From NCBI GenBank assembly GCA_011620645.1, contig WOYS01000015.1, positions 112,550 through 151,773 on the forward strand: a stretch of 39,224 bases of DNA, read 5' to 3'. The stretch's first letter is position 1; each line of letters starts with the position of its first letter. Below the pieces are notes generated by a model, which was not told the origin of the DNA, searched no databases, and saw only the letters and a program-made list of their open reading frames with translations. The translations under genes were made by a program, and so were the position numbers. The DNA comes from Mycobacterium sp. (GTDB lineage Bacteria > Actinomycetota > Actinomycetes > Mycobacteriales > Mycobacteriaceae). Shown piece by piece: positions 989 to 16,672 of this stretch.

Positions 989-1074
989 TGTCCGAGGGGG
1001 GACTTGAACCCCCACGCCCGTTAATAGGGCACTAGCACCTCAAGCTAGCGCGTCTGCCATTCCGCCACTCGGAC
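989..1074 (-). tRNA. tRNA-Leu (anticodon GAG)
   Basis: An 86-nt gene read on the minus strand. The acceptor arms GTCCGAG (1074-1068) and CTCGGAC (996-990) pair fully, with discriminator A at 989. The anticodon stem-loop is GCTAGC-TTGAGGT-GCTAGT with anticodon GAG (plus-strand CTC 1039-1041). A long variable arm of class II type is present, and the T arm contains GGTTCAAGTCC. CCA is not encoded. It reads CUC and CUU leucine codons. A toxin-antitoxin pair lies immediately downstream of its 3' end. Confidence 0.95.
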
Positions 1075-11607: not shown

Positions 11608-11724
11608 ACCGGCCTCGGTACCGTCTACCGGCCTCGGTACCGTCTGTCGGCCGCTACCGGCCTCGGTACCGTCTGTCGGCCGCTACCGGCCTCGGTACCG
11701 TCTGTCGGCCGCTACCGGCCTCGG
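11608..11724. repeat. 29-bp tandem repeat (VNTR-like), three full and two partial copies
   Basis: Three exact 29-bp units occupy 11626-11654, 11655-11683 and 11684-11712. Each contains CGGTACCG (an 8-bp palindrome around a KpnI site) and CGGCCG. A shortened copy precedes them (11608-11625), and the first 12 bp of a further copy lie at 11713-11724, inside the last codons of the PAC2 gene (RGR-stop). The array fills the space between the convergent mshC and PAC2 genes. Confidence 0.95.
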
Positions 11725-12581
11725 CGACGCAGGTAACGCTCGAACTCGGCCGCCAGCGCGTCACCGTCGATCTTGGCGACCGCCTCGTTCATATCGACCT
11801 CGGCGTCGCCGCGTTCCTCCAGGGACTGCACGTACTCGGCGATCTCCTCGTCCTCGGCGGTCATCTCGGTGACCGCCTCCTCCCACTCCTCGGCCGCGGT
11901 CGGCAGATCGGCCAGCGGAACCTCGATATCGAGCACGTCCTCGACACGGCGCAGCAGGGCCACGGTGGCCTTCGGGTTGGGCGGCTGCGACACGTAATGC
12001 GGTACCGCCGCCCAGAACGTCACCGCCGGGATACCGGCCTGCACGCAGGCATCCTGGAACACCCCGGCGATACCGGTCGGGCCCTCGTAGCGGGTCTCTT
12101 CCAGGCCGAAGAACTTGGCCGAGTCCGCTGAGTAGGCAGCCCCGGATACCGGTACCGGCCGGGTATGCGGAGTATCGGCGAGCAGTGCTCCCAGGATCAC
12201 GACCGTGTCGACGTTCAATTTGTCGGAGATGGCCAGCAGTTCCGCGCAGAACGTGCGCCACCGCATGTTCGGTTCGACGCCGTGCATGAGCACGATGTCG
12301 CGGTCGCTGCCGGGCGGCCGGCAGTGCGAGATGCGCATCGACGGCCAGACCAACTCGCGGGTGACGCCGTCGACCTGCCGGATCACCGGGCGATTCACCT
12401 GGTAGTCGTAGTACGTCTCGTCATCGATCTCGACGATCGTCTCTGCCTCCCAGATGTAGTCTAGGTGTTCCAGGGCACCGCTTGCCGCGTCACCGGCGTC
12501 ATTCCAGCCCTCGAAGGCCGCGACGACGATTGTGTTCTGCAGTTCCGGTAGGCCGGGCACGCTCGCATCCGACGGTGTCAC
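11712..12581 (-). CDS. PAC2-family protein (Rv2125-like)
   Basis: A 289-residue protein of the PAC2 family (PF09754), named for eukaryotic proteasome assembly chaperone 2; Rv2125 is about 292 residues. Core motifs: VVAAFEGWNDAGDAASGAL near the N-terminus, ILGALLADTPHTRPVPVSG in the middle and GIPAVTFWAAVPHYV, then a very acidic C-terminal segment (EEWEEAVTEMTAEDEEIAEYV). The GTG start at 12581 is supported by TACGCT 6 nt upstream. Bacterial members have no proven role. The proteasome locus lies 10 kb away. Confidence 0.9.
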   Translation of the reverse strand: MTPSDASVPGLPELQNTIVVAAFEGWNDAGDAASGALEHLDYIWEAETIVEIDDETYYDYQVNRPVIRQVDGVTRELVWPSMRISHCRPPGSDRDIVLMHGVEPNMRWRTFCAELLAISDKLNVDTVVILGALLADTPHTRPVPVSGAAYSADSAKFFGLEETRYEGPTGIAGVFQDACVQAGIPAVTFWAAVPHYVSQPPNPKATVALLRRVEDVLDIEVPLADLPTAAEEWEEAVTEMTAEDEEIAEYVQSLEERGDAEVDMNEAVAKIDGDALAAEFERYLRRRGR

Positions 12582-12593
12582 ACTGCCAGCGTA
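12582..12593 (-). promoter_or_regulatory. leaderless-type -10 element of the PAC2 gene
   Basis: On the minus strand TACGCT (12593-12588) lies 6 nt before GTG 12581. Confidence 0.5.
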
Positions 12594-12759
12594 AGCCCTG
12601 TATCGCGGTGATGAGCCGCAGCGGGCCACCCGGCGACGTGCGGGTCACATCGTCGTGAGGGACGCGTCATCGCGGGCGGGCTCGCCGAGGCCAAACACGT
12701 TCGGCCGCAATCTCCAGCCCGCGTGCCTTGGGCGTCCCGGCGTCGAACGGCCGACGACG

Positions 12760-12765
12760 TAGACT
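12760..12765 (+). promoter_or_regulatory. probable -10 element of the metH leader
   Basis: TAGACT fits the mycobacterial TANNNT -10 pattern and would start transcription near 12771, directly at the 5' helix of the riboswitch. No clear -35 is seen. The stretch 12594-12759 between the PAC2 gene and this site holds no gene that I can support. Confidence 0.45.
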
Positions 12766-12770
12766 TGCTT

Positions 12771-12863
12771 CGTCGAGAGGCGTTGCAACGGTTGTTCGGG
12801 TGCTGGGTTCCCCGGGTATCCGCCACGCTCGGCAGAGTTAAGGACGCCTTCCGTCATGGAGGG
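12771..12863 (+). ncRNA. probable S-adenosylhomocysteine (SAH) riboswitch before metH
   Basis: The leader matches the SAH riboswitch (Rfam RF01057) layout. P1 pairs GUCGAG (12772-12777) with CUCGGC (12828-12833). The conserved core UUGCAAC follows, a hairpin pairs CGG (12789-12791) with CCG (12820-12822) and CGGG (12797-12800) with CCCG (12811-12814), and CCACGCUCGG resembles the consensus CCAGGCUCGG. The pseudoknot strands AGGCGU (12778-12783) and ACGCCU (12844-12849) pair perfectly. CCUUCC (12847-12852) can instead pair with the Shine-Dalgarno GGAGGG (12858-12863) across a 5-nt loop. SAH binding would free the ribosome site, giving an ON switch for metH. Fold and mechanism are deduced by hand. 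Confidence 0.75.
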
Positions 12864-12871
12864 AGTGCACC

Positions 12872-16672
<3,801 letters not shown>

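Follow-up and report, generated by a model that had tools for sequence, protein, structure and literature searches.

In the SAH riboswitch class, a pseudoknot forms between the strand that follows helix P1 and a strand further downstream. Members bind SAH, discriminate against SAM and activate the gene through Shine-Dalgarno release or antitermination, and the ligand and mechanism of the class reportedly go back to the original papers of Weinberg in 2007 and Wang in 2008. In the Proteobacteria covered by PMC4239095, ahcY and metF are the core targets of the SAH regulon and metK is not a target. A separate RNA, the SAM/SAH riboswitch RF01727, binds SAH and has a pseudoknot fold (PMC7367207), and it is described as exclusive to Rhodobacterales and located upstream of metK (PMC2864571). 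In M. tuberculosis, metE is governed by a cobalamin riboswitch that exerts translational control as an OFF switch (PMC12713380, main text). Neither 'SAH' nor 'S-adenosylhomocysteine' occurs as a whole word in the main text of that review, which would fit if M. tuberculosis has the other metH described below; a 2022 survey of mycobacterial non-coding RNA (PMC9569102) likewise lacks the word SAH in its main text. SAH riboswitches were noted as identified in Mycobacteriaceae in 2013, in one clause of the main text of PMC3766115, which was the only item in the literature searched to name 'SAH riboswitch' and 'Mycobacteriaceae' together. Their presence in this family is therefore not new in print, contrary to the first-pass annotation of the present locus, which knew of none described in a mycobacterium, and the element meant there is very probably the one described below.

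In this study, we examined the leader of metH in a stretch of 39,224 nucleotides from a Mycobacterium sp., referred to as a whole as the window (Table 1). Sequence comparison makes it highly probable that this leader is a riboswitch of the SAH class acting as a translational ON switch. Transcription of metH would start at P1, and at low SAH the hairpin of CCUUCC with GGAGGG would hide the ribosome site. Binding of SAH would stabilise the pseudoknot, which would take CCU from this hairpin and free the ribosome site, and the MetH produced would remove the homocysteine that arises from SAH hydrolysis and thereby pull SAH down. We infer that the ligand is SAH because the RNA resembles the class and because of the genes that its relatives precede.

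Table 1. Features of the metH leader and neighbouring genes in the window
Feature	Position	Strand	Remarks
-10-like TAGACT	12760..12765	+	Consensus only; transcript probably starts near 12772, the first base of P1
P1 5' strand GUCGAG	12772..12777	+	Pairs with 12828-12833
Pseudoknot 5' strand AGGCGU	12778..12783	+	Pairs with 12844-12849
Conserved core UUGCAAC	12783..12789	+	Invariant in 31 genus leaders; UGCAAC is the RF01057 consensus
P2 hairpin	12789..12822	+	Conserved CGG/CCG base, variable loop; U-U mismatch 12792/12819 in the window
CCACGCUCGG	12823..12832	+	Junction CCACG and most of 3' P1; invariant or nearly so
P1 3' strand CUCGGC	12828..12833	+	Pairs with 12772-12777
Pseudoknot 3' strand ACGCCU	12844..12849	+	Six Watson-Crick pairs with 12778-12783
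Anti-Shine-Dalgarno strand CCUUCC	12847..12852	+	CCU common to the pseudoknot 3' strand
Shine-Dalgarno GGAGGG	12858..12863	+	Complement of CCUUCC with one U-G pair
metH, cobalamin-dependent methionine synthase	12872..16672	+	PF02574, PF00809, PF02607, PF02310, PF02965 (Pfam)
Divergent PAC2-family gene	11712..12629	-	PF09754

The first-pass annotation had placed P1, the core, P2, CCACGCUCGG, the pseudoknot, the anti-Shine-Dalgarno strand and the Shine-Dalgarno sequence correctly, base for base. The reading frame of metH is open from 12842 and has no in-frame ATG, GTG or TTG before 12977; its start is most likely the in-frame CUG at 12872-12874, in line with the start codons of 30 aligned relatives, which use GUG, AUG or, in a single case, UUG there. 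The first codons of metH hold a direct 18-bp repeat, GCTAAGTCGGATGTCTCT twice (12881-12916), and an open frame of 1064 aa, of a kind common in G+C-rich DNA, runs antisense to the gene (12962-16156, minus strand). The sole above-threshold Rfam match in the window is a tRNA gene (989-1074, minus strand).

At the gathering threshold, the Rfam scan gave no match to RF01057 in the window. A permissive scan of all Rfam over 331 nt (12650-12980) placed RF01057 at 12769-12891 with 25.6 bits (E 0.0066), below the gathering threshold of 37 bits, which is a curator's choice and not biology. The first-pass annotation had been ready to give up its reading if RF01057 scored below threshold, and taken literally this is what the search returned. 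The leader is thus not a formal RF01057 hit, and we name it an SAH-class candidate on its other features. In the whole-genome scan it heads the 12 RF01057 matches up to E 10 (E 0.019, with the runner-up at 18 bits), and the 5 matches that 12650-12980 gives up to E 10 do not include RF01727. The P1 and P2 helices are present in the RF01057 consensus order, as are the conserved UGCAAC and GCCA..GCUCGG with one consistent G-to-C departure, which puts CCAC for CCAG beside P1; the other departure from the Rfam consensus is an A/G exchange at the start of the pseudoknot strand. The RF01057 model contains no pseudoknot, and the Rfam alignment puts its 3' end about 35 nt downstream of the 3' pseudoknot strand of the first-pass annotation; the alignment of relatives identifies the latter placement, as against that of Rfam, as the conserved one.

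Taken alone, the pseudoknot with an overlapping anti-Shine-Dalgarno hairpin is only moderately rare, since 22 of 5000 dinucleotide shuffles of 12771-12870 produced a comparable combination, and the folding energy of the leader is ordinary (z -1.2; 23 of 200 shuffles as good). The decisive evidence for the element is its conservation and covariation in aligned sequences. A chance resemblance, to which the weak Rfam score might point, is contradicted by both, namely by the genus-wide conservation before the same gene and by the covariation, and can be regarded as practically negligible.

Across a set of 198 genomes of Mycobacterium in the broad sense, RF01057 matched 178 at E 0.5 or better, some of them by chance, and none above the cut-off, the best reaching 36.6 bits. 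With a model made from 31 leaders (R1), the leader was found in 174 of the 198. The remaining 24 comprise 18 with another metH, 2 (G059, G139) in which a contig end truncates metH and 4 where metH is absent or fragmentary; a complete 5' end of an orthologous metH was seen in none of them. The claim that the SAH riboswitch architecture precedes metH was borne out by the relatives, with metH following the leader directly at each of the 88 loci examined, a set that counts some genomes twice, includes three loci from sister genera and is smaller than the 174 genomes. Second RF01057 matches occur in some genus genomes, and the four inspected (L277-L280) were taken as chance because by eye none joins P1, core, CCACGCUCG junction and pseudoknot strand. 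The mycobacterial leader was also seen in metagenome bins titled Acidobacteria (L183) and Bifidobacterium breve (L209), with metH 89-92% identical to that of the window; these records are probably misbinned.

The P1/P2/pseudoknot fold is conserved and covaries in all three helices of the aligned sequences. Within the genus, all 18 double-change cells of the aptamer lie in P2, versus 6.6 when shuffled, and 4 of the 7 P2 pairs have changes on both sides. P1 and the pseudoknot are nearly constant there (5 of 6 pairs never vary in each), and so evidence for their covariation comes from other genera and families. This covariation was assessed in an alignment (A4) of 46 sequences, 45 of them distinct, which consists of 14 genus leaders chosen manually from the 31, all 27 order loci and five others; every sequence put forward passed extraction. 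Over the whole aptamer, 97.0% of A4 cells are paired, versus 30-41% with the strands slid, and 8 pairs show double changes in 87 cells, versus 26.4 when shuffled; none of 500 shuffles was as good, kinship being ignored in this count. In P1, 99.3% of cells are paired and 2 of 6 pairs have changes on both sides. The proposal of a perfect 6-bp pseudoknot whose strands are unlike the consensus yet covary was upheld: all A4 cells (100%) are paired, with 20 double-change cells versus 7.3 shuffled, and two pairs are exchanged, G-C to A-U and C-G to U-A. The second pair is A-U in two A4 loci, and the last pair is U-A in the genus and in three f14 loci (U-G in one of them) and C-G in the rest of A4. 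Compensatory changes, which the first-pass annotation had suggested looking for in metH leaders of related mycobacteria, were found in P2 within the genus and in all helices in A4. Of the 46 A4 sequences, 45 retain the core UGCRAC and the junction CCACG, CCAC or its like being general. The one that departs is L139, an ahcY leader above the Rfam cut-off with the core UGCAGC together with GCGACG, a joint change at two nearly invariant places. In L294, alone among 53 loci examined outside the genus and itself no member of A4, the searched 3' pseudoknot pattern is absent and the last pair is apparently broken.

With regard to the expression platform, the first-pass annotation had pointed to an anti-Shine-Dalgarno strand overlapping the 3' pseudoknot strand, and a CCUUCC-loop-GGARGG hairpin is indeed found in 77 of 77 distinct leaders, with energies of -7.5 to -9.9 kcal/mol in 76 of them and no double changes within the genus. 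Shine-Dalgarno accessibility was computed on secondary structure in 76 leaders with P1 formed and both pseudoknot strands barred from other pairs, and in the control six neighbouring bases were blocked in place of the 3' pseudoknot strand. The computed mean rose from 0.026 in the free leader to 0.545 with the pseudoknot strands held, versus 0.013 in the control, and the value exceeded the control in 76 of 76 leaders, by more than 0.5 in 43. In 76 of the 77 distinct leaders, the TANNNT nearest to P1 on its 5' side (TAGACT in 71) has its end 6 or 7 nt ahead of the helix, which indicates that the RNA probably begins at P1. Since CCU belongs both to the 3' strand of the pseudoknot and to the strand masking the Shine-Dalgarno sequence, a translational switch turned on by SAH appears to be the best explanation. 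We consider it very improbable that the leader is instead a conserved structure working without a ligand, thermometer-like or through a protein bound to the Shine-Dalgarno hairpin; in favour of such a structure, the hairpin is stable alone and occurs in every distinct leader, but the covarying pseudoknot and the conserved core between the helices would be left unexplained.

The window's own copy is an outlier. With P1 formed, its conserved P2 register lies 3.4 kcal/mol above the best fold, the sole such case among 74 distinct aptamers; in the 73 others the register is within 0.5 kcal/mol of the best fold, and in 67 of the 74 the difference is zero. Its computed Shine-Dalgarno accessibility rises only to 0.32. 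It is atypical also in the wobble of its Shine-Dalgarno hairpin, where 75 of 77 distinct leaders have GGAAGG versus GGAGGG in the window, and in its CUG start. The P2 register, the wobble and the CUG would all suit a copy that has decayed and no longer switches, the class fold being right for the genus. However, the copy has kept its core nucleotides, P1 and all six pseudoknot pairs, the energy calculation contains no pseudoknot and ligand terms, and an assembly of 128 contigs could hold errors, and we regard decay as unlikely. Tertiary contacts may offset the P2 energy gap, and an assembly error may explain the CUG start.

Relatives of the predicted SAH switch occur in other Actinomycetes. 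RF01057 at E 0.02 matched 64 of 249 order genomes, including 45 from outside the genus, and 14 genomes hold relatives above the 37-bit cut-off, unlike the window's leader. In the family, R1 matched 34 of 301 genomes, of which 28 belong to the genus; the others are strong in two g30 genomes and one g6 genome and weak in three, and weak matches lie before metH in G208 and before a methyltransferase gene in G219. A match in G266 (25.3 bits with R1) has no core and was dropped. A model made from A4 (R2) matched 74 of 394 genomes of the class at E 0.001, a few of which had also given rows to A4, and the 49 outside the genus all scored 3.4e-9 or better. A pattern scan of named genomes gave at least 117 stretches; among the 80 listed are Mycobacterium, Mycolicibacterium, Mycobacteroides, Nocardioides, Prauserella, Saccharomonospora, Actinomadura and Marmoricola, metagenome bins being less certain, and metH stands next to the leader in 76 of these 80 loci, the other 4 being too near the locus edge.

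The next gene was assigned by tblastn in 53 loci outside the genus (all 27 order loci and 26 of the 30 class loci, four same-genus loci being left out) as metH in 41, ahcY in 7, metK in 2, adenosine deaminase in 2 and a MOSC gene in 1, and Pfam confirmed both adenosine deaminases and one each of the other non-metH types. The Shine-Dalgarno hairpin pattern was found in 48 of 52 loci outside the genus, 4 of the 52 being without the searched pattern. In two g69 genomes (L150, L154; near 1501-1578) an SAH-type aptamer with a Shine-Dalgarno hairpin directly precedes metK, and in L132 and L156 such an aptamer precedes the adenosine deaminase gene. In L097 (1954-2040, minus strand) and L159 it stands with a CCUCCUG/CAGGAGG hairpin before a class I methyltransferase gene. 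The ahcY leader of L135 (1501-1620) carries a terminator-like hairpin, GGCGCCUCC...GGAGGCGCC followed by a U run, in which the pseudoknot strand takes part; such a hairpin is clear in this one ahcY leader and weak in three more. In L133 (1501-2393) the SAH aptamer precedes the MOSC gene and a strong cobalamin riboswitch (93.7 bits) follows about 600 nt later.

These downstream genes bear on the nature of the ligand. It is improbable, in our judgement, that the fold is of the SAH class and the ligand another compound of the SAM cycle (SAM, both, or adenosine), or that its specificity has drifted. Such a change could be read into CCAC and the A/G exchange of the pseudoknot strand, as well as into the two relatives before adenosine deaminase genes and the two before metK, a gene not under SAH riboswitches in the Proteobacteria studied (PMC4239095). 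Against it stand the core and junction, kept throughout A4 except in L139, and the downstream gene, which is metH or ahcY in 48 of the 53 loci.

The other metH carried by 18 of the 198 genus genomes (L104-L121) encodes proteins that share 32-37% identity, according to the aligner used, with the MetH of the window and are 86-98% identical to that of L106, one of the 18. This metH occupies the same locus, and all 18 loci have a homologue of the divergent PAC2 gene upstream of it. Each of the 18 also shows a TANNNT box whose end lies 6-8 nt ahead of the start codon; 17 boxes were found by a script that sought a spacing of 5-8 nt, so that the search favours that spacing, and the box of L118 was found by eye (TATCCT, 6 nt before GTG). 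The mRNA of the replaced metH is apparently leaderless and without the riboswitch, and at the Rfam cut-off no family was found in the 18 leaders, the one match being located in another part of a locus. Closed genomes of 3.3 Mb account for two of the 18. The proteins of this other metH include some of 1192 and 1206 aa, probably close in length to MetH of M. tuberculosis and M. leprae. A tree of the PAC2 protein (91 rows, quick method) groups the 18 better than chance would, with 8 changes versus 16.6-16.7 when shuffled, and its well-supported branches force at least 3 changes, in a short protein with three rows on long end branches. On this tree, the foreign metH may have arrived by one replacement or by several.

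The newer details are the genus-wide leader below the cut-off, its absence where metH is replaced, and the relatives before ahcY, metK and adenosine deaminase. We see about an even chance that the following two statements hold together: that the mycobacterial metH switch, with a CCAC tertiary-contact variant of its own, belongs as one branch to a far-reaching actinobacterial SAH regulon in which SAM synthetase, adenosine deaminase and a methyltransferase are also included, and that some members of the genus, probably with the leprosy bacilli among them and perhaps also the tubercle bacillus, lost SAH control of methionine synthesis through a leaderless foreign metH at the same locus. If the metH leader is the predicted switch, many mycobacteria would steer two methionine synthases by two RNA sensors, metE being turned off by cobalamin and metH turned on by SAH. 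A regulatory RNA would lie genus-wide below the standard annotation cut-off, and the exchange of metH with the absence of the leader would allow species that have the switch to be compared with those that lack it. Whether the class always means 'recycle SAH' is put to the test by the cases of metK and adenosine deaminase.

In comparison with known systems, the leader resembles RF01057 in that P1, core, P2, junction and pseudoknot, the last by our own reading of the consensus, have the same succession and precede SAH-recycling genes (metH and, among its relatives, ahcY), with predicted activation. It differs in the pseudoknot (AGGCGU/ACGCCU, versus GAGCGC/GCGCUC as read in the Rfam consensus), in CCAC versus CCAG and in a sub-threshold score in all 198 genus genomes. 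RF01727 has another architecture than the metH leader and shares with the SAH class the binding of SAH and a pseudoknot fold. The cobalamin riboswitch of metE likewise provides translational control of a methionine synthase, as an OFF switch and with another ligand; the only cobalamin riboswitch match in the window's genome at E 0.001 (L311, G000:C97:52802-52977) scores 24.5 bits, below the cut-off of 31.5. The proteobacterial regulon (PMC4239095) is similar in its SAM-cycle targets, which include metH in Comamonadaceae; unlike it, the genus shows a single site, which precedes metH, and in other Actinomycetes metK and adenosine deaminase join the list.
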